Shown: piece after piece, positions 14,824-29,645 of the stretch
Numbering within the stretch: position 1 is the stretch's first letter
How the letters are laid out: each line of letters begins with the position of its first letter
Origin: Nitrososphaera sp.
Lineage (GTDB): Archaea > Thermoproteota > Nitrososphaeria > Nitrososphaerales > Nitrososphaeraceae
Assembly: GCF_013388945.1 (NCBI RefSeq)
Contig: NZ_JACAEH010000004.1
Span: 62,001 to 126,000 of the forward strand
Length of the DNA: 64,000 nucleotides
Direction: 5' to 3'
Program-made: the position numbers and the translations under genes
The notes under the pieces: model-generated
The model's database searches: none
Seen by the model: the letters and a program-made list of their open reading frames with translations, nothing else
Told to the model about the DNA's origin: nothing

Positions 14824-16248
14824 CTAGTACGTCCTGTTCCAGTAGGGCGTGATTGTCGCCTGCGTGGGCTTTTCCTTCTTGATGAAGTTGACCGTCTCTT
14901 TCATCACCTGCTCTGCCCATTTCTTGAACTCCTTCTCTCCCAGCGGCAGCGGATCCGGCGCGCGCACAAAGTCTATGCTCTCTGCCGTCAGGGCGCCTGC
15001 CACCATCTCGTAGCCGCTCCCGCTTCCTGTCGCCGGCATAAGGACGACCCGGGTCGCGCCGGTCTGCGCCATCGCGGCCTCTATCTTGTCTACCGCGCTC
15101 TGCACCGCTGCAGGCGACAGCGTTGGCCAGTCCTCCCGTGCAGTCACACCAAACGCGTCTGCAAACTTCATCTTCTTCTTGGCAAACATGGCAGCGTTGG
15201 TGAGCTCCTGTTTCTGGGCCATGTCGTTTGCATCCGACTTGGCACCGTGGCCAACCAGAACGAGCACTTCCTTCTTGGCGTTTTCGCTCACGGCCTTGGC
15301 CTGCTTGACAAATATGTCCCTCAGCTCTGGGTGGTCCGGCCTCGCCGGCTCGGCAAACACCAGGACTGTCTGGCCGTTTGTCGGCTCTAGGCTCGTTATC
15401 TGACCCATGTACATGCACGAGTCTCCCATCGGCACGCCGGGGCAGTAGTCGTATTCTGGAATTCCGCCAAAGACGCCGCGGGTGACGTTGTGTATCACAG
15501 TCGAGTTGGGCCCGAACATGTCGGTGTACATGAACACTGCGTACTTGACGTCGCTGTCAAGCGACAAGAGTCCGTCGTCCCAGTTGTATGGCATGTGGTA
15601 TACGACTTCGACCGGGGTCTTGCCCTCGTTTTCGATTGCGCTCTCCATCAGCAGCATCCTTTCCACGTTTGGCGTTCCGTGGTGGTTCATCATGTCGCCG
15701 TGCGTGTATAGGAGGGCGCCGATGTCGTTCTTTGGCCCCTTGGATTTTTTGGCCTGGTCAAACGTCTTGGTTATGCACGTGCCTGCGTCTGTTTCTGAGA
15801 GCTCCAGTGTCATGACCTTTGACACCGAAGTGGCGCCGGTCTCAAGCACCGTGACCCGGTTTGTGGCCATCTCCGCCTCGCCGTCCTCGGTCATCGAAGA
15901 GACGCATTTGTCGTCAAACACGACCTTGTGGGCGTGCCACTCAAGCTCGTCGTGCTCCTCGCCAGGTGTGTCGTCGCCCATGTGCGACGTCACGGCGTAG
16001 GTGCCGGCGTCGGTGACAAACGCATACGCGAATATTTCTCCCTCTTCGTGTGGCATCTCTGCTCCGGCCGTGCCTTTCACTGTAAGGTAGGGGTTCCCGT
16101 TCTTGTCCATCCCGAAGCTCTGTATCTTGAAGCTCTTGCCGTGCGCCGGGCCATCGTCGTCGTGCCCGTGCGCAAAGCTGGGTGCGACTGCAGTCGGTGT
16201 CAAAAGGGCAAACACGAGTATGCCCGCAAGAATAATGCTTCTTATCAT
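14824..16248 (-). CDS. Secreted WHxH-domain protein with two chelatase-like (CbiX-like) halves
   Basis: A 474-aa exported protein with three parts. A signal peptide (1-26) leads into a His/Asp-rich stretch (HGHDDDGPAHGK). Residues about 39-165 form a domain marked by VKGTAG, VTSH, WHAHKVVFDD and two Cys (C115, C158); it is shared with the secreted protein at 28836-29645. Residues about 175-455 resemble two halves of a CbiX/sirohydrochlorin cobalt-chelatase-type fold: YTHGDMMNHH near 181-190 (H183), and VLVLVGHGAKSDAN near 328-341 (H334) with TRVVLMPATGSGSGYE. Known chelatases are cytoplasmic, so an exported one is unusual. Possible roles are metal or tetrapyrrole binding at the cell surface; this is inference. 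Confidence 0.6.
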   Translation of the reverse strand: MIRSIILAGILVFALLTPTAVAPSFAHGHDDDGPAHGKSFKIQSFGMDKNGNPYLTVKGTAGAEMPHEEGEIFAYAFVTDAGTYAVTSHMGDDTPGEEHDELEWHAHKVVFDDKCVSSMTEDGEAEMATNRVTVLETGATSVSKVMTLELSETDAGTCITKTFDQAKKSKGPKNDIGALLYTHGDMMNHHGTPNVERMLLMESAIENEGKTPVEVVYHMPYNWDDGLLSLDSDVKYAVFMYTDMFGPNSTVIHNVTRGVFGGIPEYDYCPGVPMGDSCMYMGQITSLEPTNGQTVLVFAEPARPDHPELRDIFVKQAKAVSENAKKEVLVLVGHGAKSDANDMAQKQELTNAAMFAKKKMKFADAFGVTAREDWPTLSPAAVQSAVDKIEAAMAQTGATRVVLMPATGSGSGYEMVAGALTAESIDFVRAPDPLPLGEKEFKKWAEQVMKETVNFIKKEKPTQATITPYWNRTY

Positions 16249-18989: not shown

Positions 18990-19098
18990 AGCATGATTTC
19001 GCCTGTTTGGCTATTAAGTCTTGCAGGTGGTGGAGCTATCTTTTTATTTTCCTCAAAGTCAGTTTGAGCTGCAGTGGAATTATTCTCCGGTGAAAGAT

Positions 19099-20739
19099 AT
19101 GGGCCTTGACCTGCGCTACCTCGAGCTGAAAAGGAAGATCCGCGAAGTCCGCATGTGGGCTATTCAGGGCATAGCCGAGGCCGGCTCGGGCCACCCCGGC
19201 GCCTCGTTTTCTGCAGCCGAAATAATGGGCACGCTTTACTTCCGCAGGATGAGGCACGACCCGAAAAACCCTTCATGGGACGAGCGGGACTACTTCATCA
19301 ACTCAAAGGCGCACTCGGCGCCCGGATATTACTCGACACTTGCTGTAGCAGGCTACTTCCCGCCCGAAGAGATAAAGACCCTGCGCAAGCTGGGCTCGCG
19401 CCTGCAGGGCCACCCTGTGAGGTATTCCGATCACCAGAAGCACCACAGCGTGCCGGGCATCGAGTATTCCGGCGGCTCGGAGGGCATCGGGCTTTCAGTC
19501 GGCGTCGGCATCGCGCTTGCAAGCCGGCTTGACGGCAAGAAAAACCGCGTCTACGTCATGATAGGGGACGGCGAGTCAAACGAGGGCCAGATATGGGAAG
19601 CGTCCATGGCGGCTGCAAAGTTCAAGCTAGACAACCTTGTAGCGGTGCTTGACAGAAACCGCATTCAGCAGGACGGCTTTACCGAGGACATCATGCCGCT
19701 TGACCCCACCAAGAACAAGTGGGAGGCTTTCAACTGGCAGGTCTTTGAAGTCGACGGTCACAGGGTTGAGCAGCTGATGGACGCGTTCAGCAGGGCTGCG
19801 CTGATAAAAGACAAGCCTGTCATGATAATCGCAAACACGGTCAAGGGGAACGGCGTCAGGCACATGGCAAACAGCCCCCAGTGGCACGGCAAGGCGCCTT
19901 CGAAAAAGCACACGCCGGTCCTGCTTGAAGAGCTTGAAAGCGAGTTTCTCATAGCGCCTTCCATCATAGCTGGCGAGAAGGAGAACTACGAGGACAAGAT
20001 CAAAAAGGCCGAGCGCGAGGGCGTGGAGCTGATACACCTCGACGTGATGGACGGCAGGTTCGTTCCAAACAGCACGTTTTTGGCAGACACGATAAAGAAG
20101 CTCAGGCCGGTGACGACGCTTCCCTTTGACGCCCACCTGATGATAGAAAAACCAATCGACCATATCGACGAGTACATCGACGCAAGGTGCGACATCATAA
20201 CGGTGCACGCAGAAGCCTGCACGGAAAAAGAGTTTGCGGTAATTCAGGAAAGATGCCTTGCGGCAGGAATCAGCCCGGGCATTGCGATAAACCCTAAAAC
20301 AGACGTGCCAAAGTGGCTCTACCCGTATCTTCCCGACCTTGACATCGTAATAGTGATGTCGGTGAACCCCGGCTTTGCAGGGCAGAAGTTCATACCCGAG
20401 ACCCTGCCCAAGATGGTCGCAGTCAACAAAGAATTAAGAGAGCACGGCTTCAAAGGCTACATAGAGGCCGACGGCGGCATCGACGCCACGACCCTGCAGC
20501 CAGTCTACGACGCCGGCGCCCGCATATTTGTCGCAGGAAGCGCCGTGTATGGCAACTCGGACATACACTCTGCAGTCATACACCTGCGCCACAAGGCCGC
20601 TGTAACGCTTGAGAAGAGGCTCCTTGAGCACTCGACAAAACTTGGCATAAGGGCCGACTGGATGAAGGCGCGGAAGAATATATTGATCCCTTACGCATCT
20701 GAACTTGCCATAGAGGAAGAGCTCAATGCTATTAAGTAG
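19099..20739 (+). CDS. Transketolase N-terminal subunit fused to ribulose-phosphate 3-epimerase
   Basis: One frame encodes two pentose phosphate enzymes. Residues 1 to about 282 (from the ATG at 19099) are the thiamine-diphosphate-binding half of transketolase: GSGHPGASFSAAEI, then GDGESNEGQIWEASMAAAKF, the TPP motif. From about residue 283 (near 19945) comes a full ribulose-5-phosphate 3-epimerase barrel: FLIAPSIIAG, HLDVMDGRFVPN, DAHLMIEKP, MSVNPGFAGQKF and EADGGID, including both catalytic Asp residues and the metal-binding His. A 45-residue helical tail follows. The frame is open from a TTG at 19021, but the TK similarity and AT-rich upstream sequence favour the ATG. The C-terminal TK half is the next gene, overlapping by 14 bp. 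Confidence 0.93.
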   Translation: MGLDLRYLELKRKIREVRMWAIQGIAEAGSGHPGASFSAAEIMGTLYFRRMRHDPKNPSWDERDYFINSKAHSAPGYYSTLAVAGYFPPEEIKTLRKLGSRLQGHPVRYSDHQKHHSVPGIEYSGGSEGIGLSVGVGIALASRLDGKKNRVYVMIGDGESNEGQIWEASMAAAKFKLDNLVAVLDRNRIQQDGFTEDIMPLDPTKNKWEAFNWQVFEVDGHRVEQLMDAFSRAALIKDKPVMIIANTVKGNGVRHMANSPQWHGKAPSKKHTPVLLEELESEFLIAPSIIAGEKENYEDKIKKAEREGVELIHLDVMDGRFVPNSTFLADTIKKLRPVTTLPFDAHLMIEKPIDHIDEYIDARCDIITVHAEACTEKEFAVIQERCLAAGISPGIAINPKTDVPKWLYPYLPDLDIVIVMSVNPGFAGQKFIPETLPKMVAVNKELREHGFKGYIEADGGIDATTLQPVYDAGARIFVAGSAVYGNSDIHSAVIHLRHKAAVTLEKRLLEHSTKLGIRADWMKARKNILIPYASELAIEEELNAIK

Positions 20740-21703
20740 CGAGAAAAAGACTGCCGACATGAGGGGCGCCTACGGCGACGCCCTCGTGGAGCTGGGCAAG
20801 TCAGACCCGCGCGTGGTGTGCGTCGGGGGCGACACGACTGACTCGCTCAAGACCAAGAAATTCGGCGACAAGTTCCCCGAGCGCATGTTCAACGTCGGCA
20901 TTGCAGAGGCAAACCTCGTGTCGATTGCCGCCGGCCTTGCGATTGCAGGCAAGGTCTCGTTTGCAAGCACCTACGCGGCATTCATCCCGGGCAGGGCCGT
21001 TGACCAGATCCGCAACACGATATGCTATCCTGCTCTGAACGTCAAGCTTGTTGTATCGCACGGCGGCCTCACGGTGGGGCCTGACGGTGCGTCGCACCAG
21101 CAGATTGAAGACCTGAGCACCACGCGGGCGATGCCCAACATGCGCGTGATTGTCCCGTCAGACGCAGTGGCAGTCAGGCACCTGATAAAGACGATAGCGA
21201 ACACGCCGGGACCGTTTTACATGCGCCTTGCAAGGCCGACGACGGAGCTCGTGTATTCCGAGTCGACGCCGGCTGAGCAGTTTACAGTCGGCAGGGGCAA
21301 CGTGCTTGTCGACGGCTCTGACGCCACGATAATAGCGTGCGGTCTGATGGTCGGAAAGGCACTTGAGGCCGCGGCCGCGCTAAAGCGCGAGCAGGGGCTG
21401 GCTGTCCGGGTGGTGGACATGTTCACGATAAAGCCCATTGACACCGGGCTTGTAGCCAAGTGTGCCAGAGAAACCGGCGCGATTGCGACTGCCGAGGAGC
21501 ACAACATCATAGGCGGGCTTGGCTCTGCGGTGTCAGAGGCCGCAGGCGAGACCTATCCGGTCCCGATAAAGCGCGTCGGCGTGAAAGACACTTTTGGCGA
21601 GTCTGCAAGGGACGAGGAGGTTGACACTCTCCTGGAGCAGTACGGGCTGACCGCAACAGAAATAGCAAAGGCAGTGGTGGAAGCAAGGAGTAGGGCCAGA
21701 TGA
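20726..21703 (+). CDS. Transketolase C-terminal subunit
   Basis: The pyrimidine-binding and C-terminal domains of a split transketolase, 325 aa. It contains RMFNVGIAEANLVSIAAGLA (the Glu that activates thiamine diphosphate), VSHGGLTVGPDGASHQQIEDL and VVDMFTIKPIDTGLVAK. It must pair with the N-terminal half encoded just upstream to form the active enzyme transferring two-carbon units between sugar phosphates. The 14-bp overlap with the upstream gene and 4-bp overlap with the downstream transaldolase suggest tight translational coupling. Confidence 0.95.
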   Translation: MLLSSEKKTADMRGAYGDALVELGKSDPRVVCVGGDTTDSLKTKKFGDKFPERMFNVGIAEANLVSIAAGLAIAGKVSFASTYAAFIPGRAVDQIRNTICYPALNVKLVVSHGGLTVGPDGASHQQIEDLSTTRAMPNMRVIVPSDAVAVRHLIKTIANTPGPFYMRLARPTTELVYSESTPAEQFTVGRGNVLVDGSDATIIACGLMVGKALEAAAALKREQGLAVRVVDMFTIKPIDTGLVAKCARETGAIATAEEHNIIGGLGSAVSEAAGETYPVPIKRVGVKDTFGESARDEEVDTLLEQYGLTATEIAKAVVEARSRAR

Positions 21704-22365
21704 AGATATTCCTAGACACGGCAAACCTCGACTCGATAAGAAAGTACAACGACATGGGGCTCGTCGACGGCGTGACAACAAACCCGACGCTCCTCTCAAA
21801 GGAGAAGGGCAACCCTGCAGAGATAATGCGCGAGATTGTAAAGATAATCACCGGCCCAGTCAGCCTGGAAGTGGTCTCAACTGACTATAACGGCATGATG
21901 GAAGAGGCCCACAGGCTGAAAAAGTACGGCAAGAACGTGGTGGTCAAGATCCCCATGATACCGGAGGGCCTGAAGGCCGTGAAAAAGCTAAAGGAAGAAG
22001 GCATACAAACAAACGTGACGCTCGTGTTCTCTGCAAACCAGGCGGTCCTGGCCGCAAAGGCCGGCGCGGCGTACGTCAGCCCGTTCATAGGCAGGCTGGA
22101 CGATGCGGGCCAAAATGGTATGACACTAATCGAGGAGATAGTCAAGATATTCAAAAACTATAACTTCAAGACAGAAGTGCTCGTCGCAAGCGTGAGGCAC
22201 CCGATGCACGTGGTAGAAGCCGGCAAGATAGGCGCGCACGTAGTGACGCTGCCTCCCGATATCCTAGGCAAGATGACGTCGCACCCGCTCACCGACAAGG
22301 GACTTGCCGCTTTCTTGGCGGACTGGGAAAAGGTCAAGAAGGAAAACCCGAAACTGTCAATCTAG
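21700..22365 (+). CDS. Transaldolase (short, fructose-6-phosphate aldolase-like type)
   Basis: A 221-aa single-barrel transaldolase of the short type. MKIFLDTANLDSIRKY, VDGVTTNPTLLSKE and VVVKIPMIPEG are diagnostic; the Schiff-base Lys is K83 in VKIPM. It exchanges dihydroxyacetone units between sugar phosphates, or may act as a fructose-6-phosphate aldolase. With the upstream TK/RPE genes it completes a non-oxidative pentose phosphate operon for making ribose 5-phosphate and erythrose 4-phosphate from glycolytic intermediates. ATGA overlap with the transketolase gene; stop overlaps the convergent VWA gene by 4 bp. Confidence 0.92.
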   Translation: MKIFLDTANLDSIRKYNDMGLVDGVTTNPTLLSKEKGNPAEIMREIVKIITGPVSLEVVSTDYNGMMEEAHRLKKYGKNVVVKIPMIPEGLKAVKKLKEEGIQTNVTLVFSANQAVLAAKAGAAYVSPFIGRLDDAGQNGMTLIEEIVKIFKNYNFKTEVLVASVRHPMHVVEAGKIGAHVVTLPPDILGKMTSHPLTDKGLAAFLADWEKVKKENPKLSI

Positions 22366-26364: not shown

Positions 26365-27216
26365 TTGGTTTCCATAAGCCCGCTCCAGGCAATCATGTGG
26401 ACCTTCCGGCGCAGCGAGCGGGACGTCGTAAACCTGTACAACTCGCTCTCGCCGGTGATGCAGCTGGCGACAGGCGGCGATATGCTGAACTTTGGCTACT
26501 GGGAGGGCGCGCGTGATCCTATCGATGCGCAGCGCAGGCTCTGCTCGCTTGTAGGCGACATAGCCGGGCTTGCATCTGCAAAGATGCTCGTCGATGTCGG
26601 AAGCGGGCTTGGTGCTCCGGCGGCAGAGTGGAGAGCAGCGCACGGCTCAGAGATCGTCTGCGTGAACATCAACAAAGAGCAGCTATTGCTTTCTGCAAAG
26701 CCTGACGGCATATCCTTTGTGAACGCGACTTCCACCGCCCTCCCCTTTTCTGACAGGTCTGCCGACAGGATAGTGGCGCTCGAGTCCGCCCAGCATTTCA
26801 GGCCCCTTGAGCGGTTCATAGCGGAGTCGAGAAGGATCCTGAAAGACGACGGCATTTTGGTGATGGCACTTCCTGTGATGAAAAAAGGCGACGGGCACAT
26901 GAAGGCAGTAACCGGGCTTGGCATACTTTCGTTCACCTGGTCGTCGGAACACTACGGGCTGGAGTACGTCAAGTCGGCGGTTGCTGGTGGCGGATTTGCT
27001 ATAGACGACATCAGGCACATTGGGCACCAGGTGTACGAGCCTCTGACAGACTATTACGTCAAAAACAGGCAGGCGCTCAGGGAGAACATCTTGAAGGAGT
27101 ACTCCTCTTTTATCGAGGGCGTGCTTTACAGGTCGCTTTTGAAAATGAAGGACGCCTCTGAAAAATGCATAATCGATTATGTCATAATAAAGGCACTACG
27201 TCTTGAACCACTTTGA
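26365..27216 (+). CDS. Class I SAM-dependent methyltransferase
   Basis: A 283-aa methyltransferase. Motif I is MLVDVGSGLGAPAAEW, the acidic end of strand 2 is VCVNINKEQL, motif II/III SADRIVALESAQHF and RILKDDGILVMALP. The upstream segment VNLYNSLSPVMQLATGGDMLNFGYWEG is typical of small-molecule methyltransferases related to tocopherol/sterol and UbiE-type enzymes. The substrate cannot be inferred. Start is TTG at 26365 or the ATG at 26395. Its 3' end overlaps the convergent transglutaminase-like gene by 21 bp. Confidence 0.78.
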   Translation: MVSISPLQAIMWTFRRSERDVVNLYNSLSPVMQLATGGDMLNFGYWEGARDPIDAQRRLCSLVGDIAGLASAKMLVDVGSGLGAPAAEWRAAHGSEIVCVNINKEQLLLSAKPDGISFVNATSTALPFSDRSADRIVALESAQHFRPLERFIAESRRILKDDGILVMALPVMKKGDGHMKAVTGLGILSFTWSSEHYGLEYVKSAVAGGGFAIDDIRHIGHQVYEPLTDYYVKNRQALRENILKEYSSFIEGVLYRSLLKMKDASEKCIIDYVIIKALRLEPL

Positions 27217-28566
27217 GGTGCTCTCTATGGTTGAAAAGTTGTCGCCATAGACTTGGATGTGCAGTCTTGTATCCTTGCCCCGCGGCGGCGACAGCGTGAT
27301 CTCCCAGTAGTATGTCCCGCCTGCCTCTAGGTCAATCGGGTCGGTAGTTATCTGCTTCCAGACCTTGCCTGCCTGCTGCGCGTCAAACGCGGTCCATGTC
27401 TTCAAGTTCTTGGCCGCAGCCGAGCCTTCGTTGTTTATCGTGATCAGGATCTTGTACGTTGCGTACGAATTACTATAATTTACAAGCTCGGATTCCCATC
27501 TGAAAGTTATGGTCGGCTTGGCGGTCAGTGGGTAAAGGTCGGCTGTTGTGCCCCTGTACTCTTCTGGCAGTTCTCCAATCTGCCAGTTTTCGCCGGTCGT
27601 TTCCACGTAAAAGTAGTCCCTCCCTTCAAACTCGTAGTAGCTGCCGTCGCAGCTTGTGCAGTACACGCCGACAGCCATGTGCTCCGGTGGATTTATCAGT
27701 ATGGCGCCATACCCCAGTTTTTGGATGAGGTCGGCGGCAAGGATTGAGGTGTCTTCGCAGTCGCCCCCGTTGTCCACCAGGGTCTCTATTGGATAGCGCG
27801 GGTATTCATCAAAAGCAGTTGTCACGCTGTCAGACGTGTAGGGTAGGCTCTGGACGAAGCTTATCACGAAATTAATTGTCTGCCACTCGGTCCAGCCTCT
27901 TTCCTTGGCAACCTCTCTTATGCTGTCAACGAGGCTTGAGATCATCTTGTCGTCGTAGGTGTCCGTGACGTAGACGGAGTAGTCGGTAGGTGGCCGGTCT
28001 TTGTACCTGTAATAGTCGTACAGGGCCTTTGAAAATGCAGGATCCCACGTCCACTCCTCGCCTTCAAACGTCCACTTGTAATTCCTCTTGATTGTGGCAG
28101 ACGACCAGTTGATGTTGGTGTCCTTGACGCCCCAGTCGGTGTAGGCGCCGTCCGTGCTTTTGACAACCCACCTGAAGAAAAAGATAGGCGCAGGCGAGCT
28201 TATCTCAAACGTGGCCGAGGTGCCGGGGCGCATTGCCTTTGTTGAAAATGAGACTGTGCCATCACGGGTTTTGGCCATCCAGCCTGACGGAGCTTTGTAC
28301 TTGGTAATGTCCTGTTTTGAAAGCGATATTTCTATGGACTGGAGAGAGTAGCCGCTGTCCCTCGGGTTTGAGAACTTGGCTTTCAGAGTGTACAAGCCGT
28401 TGGAAGTAACGCCTTTGCTGACGGTGATTTTTACAGGCGTTTGGGCGTGGGCGACGGTTTGAAAACTGGCTAGAATGACAGATGAGATCAGGATGGATGC
28501 AAGTATGATGGCCAGCACGCAGGGGTTGGCCATGGATCGCATGGAAGGAGATGGACCGGGATTCAT
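27196..28566 (-). CDS. Secreted transglutaminase-like protein
   Basis: A 456-aa exported protein with a signal peptide (about 9-41, ending TVAHAQ). An N-terminal beta-rich region precedes a transglutaminase-like cysteine-protease fold: TEWQTINFVISFVQSLPY, then GGDCEDTSILAADLIQ (C270), PPEHMAVGV (H296) and DYFYVETTG, which supplies the third active-site position. A C-terminal Ig-like/CARDB-like domain ends the protein. Members of this group may act as peptidases or amidases at the cell surface. A 7-bp inverted repeat (28582-28600) lies in its promoter. Confidence 0.78.
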   Translation of the reverse strand: MNPGPSPSMRSMANPCVLAIILASILISSVILASFQTVAHAQTPVKITVSKGVTSNGLYTLKAKFSNPRDSGYSLQSIEISLSKQDITKYKAPSGWMAKTRDGTVSFSTKAMRPGTSATFEISSPAPIFFFRWVVKSTDGAYTDWGVKDTNINWSSATIKRNYKWTFEGEEWTWDPAFSKALYDYYRYKDRPPTDYSVYVTDTYDDKMISSLVDSIREVAKERGWTEWQTINFVISFVQSLPYTSDSVTTAFDEYPRYPIETLVDNGGDCEDTSILAADLIQKLGYGAILINPPEHMAVGVYCTSCDGSYYEFEGRDYFYVETTGENWQIGELPEEYRGTTADLYPLTAKPTITFRWESELVNYSNSYATYKILITINNEGSAAAKNLKTWTAFDAQQAGKVWKQITTDPIDLEAGGTYYWEITLSPPRGKDTRLHIQVYGDNFSTIESTSKWFKT

Positions 28567-28835: not shown

Positions 28836-29645
28836 CTAGTCGTTGCGCTCTCTCTTTGTCAGGTCTGCCGTGTCGTATACCTGCACCACCAGCGCGATGC
28901 ACGTCGTGCCTGGTGGCGGGTTGTCCGGGTCGTCCACCTGCAGCTGGAGCCGGACAGTCGCGGCGGAAGTGATCTTCTTTGCGTCTATCCCCTCCACGCC
29001 CTTCTTGCTCTTTACCTTCATGTCCTCGAATATCGCGCGCTTGCCTTTCATCATCGCATGCGTGACCTGGTCGACCTCGTTGAGGCAGGTGGCGTCCACT
29101 TCAGGGGTCGCAGGGTTGTCAGTCAGGTGCACCCGGTGCCCGTGCCATGCCGATCCCGTGCCGGTGTCGCCGTGCTGGATTTCATGCGAGTCAACCGCCC
29201 AGGTCTGCTCCTCGCCGCTTCTTGTGATTATGTTAAGGACGTATCCTATTGCCTCGTCATGCTCGCCAAGCGTCCCGCCTGCAGTGCCATACACTTCGAC
29301 GTATGCGTCCTTGCCCTTGAACCCATAGTCCTTTATGTCAAGGTCCAGGAAAGGGCTGTCGCCCTTGGGGTCGACCTTTGGCTTTTTGTCCTTGTCCTTT
29401 TCCTTGTCTTTATTCTTGCCAAATAACCTTGAAAACTCTTTTTTCTTCTCCTTGTCATCGTCGTCGTCATCGTTGTCGCGCTCTTTGTCATTGTTCTTGC
29501 CATTGCTGCGCTCCTTGTCATCATCGTCTGAATCTGCCTGCGCGGCGCCCAGCAGTCCAGGTGATGGGATCGCAAATACGGCCAGAAGCAAAACCGATGC
29601 CAGCAGGGCCGCTATCAAGAGATTGGCGTCATGCTTTTCCGCCAT
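28836..29645 (-). CDS. Secreted charged-linker protein with WHxH domain
   Basis: A 269-aa exported or membrane-anchored protein. An N-terminal hydrophobic helix (about 9-36) is followed by a very highly charged linker (about 38-97) made of Asp, Lys and Glu runs, then a domain (about 100-262) with EVYGTAGG, WAVDSH, WHGHRVHLTD and two Cys (C187, C249). The same pattern occurs in the chelatase-like protein at 14824-16248, so these are paralogous domains. The conserved His residues suggest metal binding. No function is known to me. Confidence 0.6.
   Translation of the reverse strand: MAEKHDANLLIAALLASVLLLAVFAIPSPGLLGAAQADSDDDDKERSNGKNNDKERDNDDDDDDKEKKKEFSRLFGKNKDKEKDKDKKPKVDPKGDSPFLDLDIKDYGFKGKDAYVEVYGTAGGTLGEHDEAIGYVLNIITRSGEEQTWAVDSHEIQHGDTGTGSAWHGHRVHLTDNPATPEVDATCLNEVDQVTHAMMKGKRAIFEDMKVKSKKGVEGIDAKKITSAATVRLQLQVDDPDNPPPGTTCIALVVQVYDTADLTKRERND

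Follow-up and report, generated by a model that had tools for sequence, protein, structure and literature searches.

Two open reading frames on the minus strand of the window, i.e., the whole stretch of 64,000 nucleotides that was analysed here, from the genome of a soil ammonia-oxidising archaeon (Nitrososphaera sp.), encode proteins with hydrophobic N-termini (by reading) and a common succession of short motifs. The locus raises the question of whether these proteins have a homologous domain in common and, if so, how far this domain extends among archaea and what its role could be. The original prediction took the shared pattern for an undescribed, probably metal-binding extracellular domain. 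The genome is 2.0 Mb in size, 99% complete and distributed over 31 contigs; the relevant features of the window are as follows.

28836..29645, minus strand: gene of P0001 (269 amino acids), with a signal-like N-terminus, an acidic/basic linker and the WHxH domain (ORF and profile match)
29352..29531, minus strand: Asp/Lys/Glu-rich linker of P0001, about residues 39-98, 60 residues (translation read directly)
28860..29348, minus strand: WHxH domain of P0001, residues 100-262, predicted to be all-beta (BLASTP and profile matches, AlphaFold2 model)
29184..29186, minus strand: His154 of the SH motif in P0001, candidate metal ligand 1
29136..29147, minus strand: WHGH of P0001, residues 167-170, in which His168 and His170 are candidate metal ligands 2 and 3
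29085..29087, minus strand: Cys187 of P0001, the first cysteine of the conserved pair, a probable disulfide
28899..28901, minus strand: Cys249 of P0001, the second cysteine of the conserved pair
14824..16248, minus strand: gene of P0002 (474 amino acids), with a signal-like N-terminus, the WHxH domain and a predicted class II chelatase-like fold (ORF and profile match)
15754..16134, minus strand: WHxH domain of P0002, residues 39-165, with His89, WHAH at 104-107, Cys115 and Cys158 (BLASTP and profile matches, model)
14827..15726, minus strand: predicted exported class II chelatase-like part of P0002, residues 175-474 (Foldseek search with the model)

The individual P0001 residues were assigned by position and column conservation. 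All the motifs on which the prediction was based are readily identifiable, namely GTAG in both proteins, WAVDSH in P0001 and YAVTSH in P0002, and WHGHRV and WHAHKV, respectively; the two distal cysteines of each protein and the linker of P0001 are likewise present as described.

In a direct BLASTP comparison, P0001 and P0002 align with E = 2e-5 (a single comparison) and just 32% identity over 82 alignment columns, a low value that could speak for a chance or convergent pattern in two unrelated exported proteins. This explanation appears extremely improbable because a profile built from members in other genomes only, when run against all 554 six-frame, stop-to-stop ORFs of at least 60 amino acids in the window, selects exactly these two, P0002 with E = 3.4e-51 and P0001 with E = 6.5e-13, the next best ORF scoring E = 2.5. 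With the chelatase-fused relatives removed from the profile as well, the values for the two window proteins are 1e-42 and 1.3e-11. The similarity between the two proteins is thus far beyond chance and, judged from these sequence comparisons, P0001 and P0002 share one homologous domain. The genome encodes a third copy of the domain, P0003, on its contig C7; the part that aligns with P0001 shows 42% identity to it.

The profile search proposed along with the prediction recovered many further members, and the comparisons between the resulting profiles are significant. Of 70 family-level genomes searched, 21 contain proteins matched by profile A1, and iteration yielded three subfamilies: A2, the WHxH type to which the window proteins belong; A3, a 'FHREDF' type without the His motif that is found mostly in Nitrosocosmicus-like genomes; and a broad, more distantly related subfamily (profiles A4, A5 and A8) with the pattern HGHIP...GYG...TTHxGVLDS...WHNH, which ranges across Nitrososphaeraceae and Nitrosopumilaceae. 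The hhalign comparison of A2 with A3 gives E = 2e-22, and that of A2 with A4 gives E = 1e-5 at a probability of 82%. The link between A2 and the broad subfamily is supported from both sides because, in whole-genome searches, the A5 profile independently matches A2 members (1.9e-5 and 4.8e-5) and the A2 profile in turn matches broad-subfamily members. The WHxH motif itself, from which the domain was originally delineated, does not hold as the mark of the whole homologous family: many members have FHxH or YHxH instead, and the A3 clade lacks all three histidines. L006, a weak match, is confined to the acidic linker and was dropped as a member. One broad-subfamily member (L035/L063, G009 contig 1, about 142938-146276) contains a single in-frame TAG and, in a long tail rich in Ser, Asn and Asp, 'QGIxQSQ' repeats; it is possibly a decaying copy.

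The taxonomic distribution of the family is patchy. The A5 profile finds members in 42 of 300 class-level genomes, which appear to represent both Nitrososphaeraceae and Nitrosopumilaceae, and phylum-wide sampling added no group beyond the order of these two families. A peptide-pattern scan with one genome per GTDB species gave 19 loci, all 19 in ammonia-oxidising archaea (Nitrosocosmicus, Nitrososphaera, Nitrosopolaris, Nitrosopumilus, Cenarchaeum and further relatives); the range found in this way is a lower bound because such a scan detects close matches only. A1 is too divergent to serve as a seed for the GTDB contig scan, for which the first row and the conserved peptides of alignment A8 were used, and the same kind of scan with the whole of P0002 gave no matches. 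In profile searches, several complete genomes belonging to the same genus lack the family. Neither P0001 and P0002 nor the A2, A4 and A8 members match any Pfam or NCBIfam family at the curated cut-off, PDB sequence searches with the domain gave no match, and no description of the family was found in the literature searched, which took in a minority of subscription journals. Of 63 members examined by a hydropathy test, 55 have a hydrophobic, signal-like N-terminal segment, and some of the other sequences are truncated; this indicates that the family members are exported. Taken together, these sequence data support the conclusion that the domain represents an undescribed exported family of ammonia-oxidising archaea, as had been suspected from the two window proteins.

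Among the 37 broad-subfamily members, both histidines of HxH are invariant (37/37 and 37/37) and the upstream histidine of TH is present in 35; the first cysteine is found in 36 and the second in 35. In the group of 26 that combines A2, A3 and L052, Cys1 is present in all and Cys2 in 25. The A8 alignment, which was used for the contig scan, for finding members and for the His/Cys tallies, carries eight incorrect N-terminal letters in one row, all outside the counted columns; its first row and the conserved peptides are free of them. P0001 and P0002 have all three histidines, and the WHxH group in general keeps the triad or, in a few members, replaces one histidine by Asp or Glu (SD in L014, L029 and L015; WHAER in P0003). 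Asp and Glu are also able to bind metal. The A3 clade, recovered in the tree with support of 100/99, has lost all three histidines and kept both cysteines.

The AlphaFold2 model of the P0001 domain is all-beta, with moderate confidence (pLDDT 79.5, pTM 0.77; just 20 sequences in the alignment), and in the P0002 model the strands follow one another in the same order. The predicted strands make a three-His site plausible, the upstream histidine being close to where one of them ends and HxH being located on the following one. Comparison of the P0001 model with the PDB yielded no significant structural neighbour (best E = 0.07, probability 0.10).

In our view, the best reading of these observations, and a moderately probable one, is that the domain carries a three-His metal site on an all-beta, disulfide-stapled exported scaffold. 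It is based on the conservation of HxH and the additional histidine, the carboxylates that replace single histidines, the loss of the triad as a unit in the A3 clade and the fusion to a predicted chelatase fold. The two conserved cysteines would be linked in a disulfide and thereby staple the fold; the histidine of [S/T]H and the two histidines of HxH would make up a transition-metal site outside the cell, with Cu2+ or Zn2+ as the most likely occupants; and the A3 clade would represent a case in which the scaffold was kept and the site was lost. On the other side stand the moderate confidence of the model, the patchy distribution of the family, the lack of any recurring metal-transport or copper gene beside its members, and the Nitrosocosmicus chelatase-like protein, which has no WHxH domain.

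The same data can be read differently. An exported fold modelled as all-beta would suit an adhesion, glycan-binding or S-layer-associated module whose histidines have a structural role or form the lining of a ligand pocket, and so would the low-complexity linkers and tails of P0001 and several relatives, given that charged linkers and Asn/Ser-rich tails fit surface display; the A3 clade, moreover, retains the fold although all three histidines are missing. Near-complete conservation of the triad across diverged members, with Asp or Glu as the replacements, is nevertheless more typical of metal ligands, and no S-layer or glycan gene recurs in the neighbourhoods compared, so that we regard such a role as possible but on the unlikely side. 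Still less probable is a catalytic function, i.e., a metal-dependent extracellular enzyme built around the His triad: besides the triad itself, the broad subfamily does have other near-invariant polar positions (DS after TTHxG), but no acid/base set beyond the triad is common to the subfamilies, the P0001 model matches no enzyme fold, and the neighbouring genes give no clue to a substrate.

Gene neighbourhoods are generally of little help with respect to function. Around the chelatase-like and broad-subfamily genes, no informative gene recurs across genera, and no metal-transport or copper gene was found to recur beside members in the neighbourhoods compared. In the window, P0001 adjoins a 456-amino-acid exported protein (27196-28566, minus strand) in which a Cys-protease/transglutaminase-like stretch, GGDCEDTS, can be read and whose C-terminus gives a weak CARDB match under the cut-off. 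Elsewhere in the window, the region 19021-22365 makes up a pentose-phosphate cluster in which two genes are fused in an unusual way: a single ORF (19021-20739, plus strand) joins the N-terminal half of a transketolase (Pfam, 6e-49) to a ribulose-phosphate 3-epimerase (3.6e-58) and is directly followed by the C-terminal transketolase half, identified by reading (20726-21703), and a transaldolase-like ORF (21700-22365).

The preferred metal-site reading draws part of its support from the fusion to the C-terminal part of P0002, which, according to the structural model, has a bilobal class II chelatase fold. The Foldseek search with this model retrieved CpfC/ferrochelatase with E = 9.7e-8 and SirB with E = 3.4e-5 (target TM 0.71); the first half of the chelatase-like part is less well modelled than the second, and the stretch 253-291 is poor. 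At the sequence level, every Pfam chelatase model stays under its cut-off (CbiK scores 12.1-13.2 bits vs 26.2), and no PDB sequence is matched. An alignment of seven chelatase-like sequences contains an invariant histidine in each half (YTHG and GHG[AR]) and an invariant RED, which are candidates for the catalytic His and Glu. Known class II chelatases function in the cytoplasm or in organelles. The exported chelatase-like protein is present in only two genera among 300 class-level genomes and can be considered an unannotated oddity in its own right. A seemingly conserved in-frame TAG in the Nitrosocosmicus chelatase-like genes turned out to be just the regular stop codon where the match ends.

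The architecture of these proteins is variable. The order given in the original prediction, with the domain followed by the chelatase-like halves, applies to P0002; in relatives from two genomes of the same genus (G029 and G040), the arrangement is reversed, with the domain at the C-terminal end, after the chelatase-like part. Nitrosocosmicus-like genomes encode the chelatase-like protein without the domain, and the WHxH domain stands alone in many other proteins. The domain is, then, a mobile module relative to its chelatase-fold partner. The three chelatase-fused domains cluster in the tree, with support of 81/80, which is under the threshold for strong support; because of this clustering, the sequence data favour a single fusion event after which the order changed. 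In G042, the chelatase-like protein (L067, 1399-3024) has, instead of the WHxH domain, a different His-rich C-terminal part with AVAGHIDED...LHMHYL...CVYHAH. This part was considered as a divergent family member and rejected, being not detectably homologous (0.5-4.5 bits); it is possibly an unrelated replacement.

If the metal-site reading is right, the domain would be a small extracellular module for the capture or holding of metal, used alone, on a linker or joined to a secreted chelatase-like protein that could handle metal or a tetrapyrrole. A more specific scenario, which is tentative and rather unlikely, is that copper or another metal captured by the three-His domain is exchanged, in either direction, with the secreted chelatase-fold protein, the two constituting a lineage-specific supply route. 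No chelatase is mentioned in the publications consulted on copper limitation, on biofilm or on the glycoproteome in ammonia-oxidising archaea. Extracellular metal acquisition by these archaea is poorly understood. In any case, an exported domain with a conserved His triad that is fused to an exported chelatase-like fold is a concrete candidate for archaeal metal handling, and the family, found solely in ammonia-oxidising archaea in the searches made, would annotate many of their 'hypothetical' proteins at once. Should metal exchange indeed occur, the family would be part of the poorly known metal supply of these copper-dependent organisms; ammonia-oxidising archaea are described as relying heavily on copper enzymes (PMC7785015).

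Among known systems, the closest analogies for the domain may be with small exported copper or zinc domains such as cupredoxins, CopC and PCuAC: the present family, too, would consist of small exported beta domains, with histidine side chains as the proposed ligands. Unlike these proteins, considered as a group, the new domain has no Pfam match and finds no counterpart in the PDB by sequence or by fold; its cysteine pair looks like a disulfide, not like a type 1 copper ligand; and its pattern consists of HxH and one upstream histidine. The C-terminal part of P0002, and this part only, resembles class II chelatases (CpfC/HemH, SirB and CbiX) in its predicted fold and in having one invariant histidine per half, and differs from them in being apparently exported, in sharing about 10% identity and in its fusion to the WHxH domain in either order.
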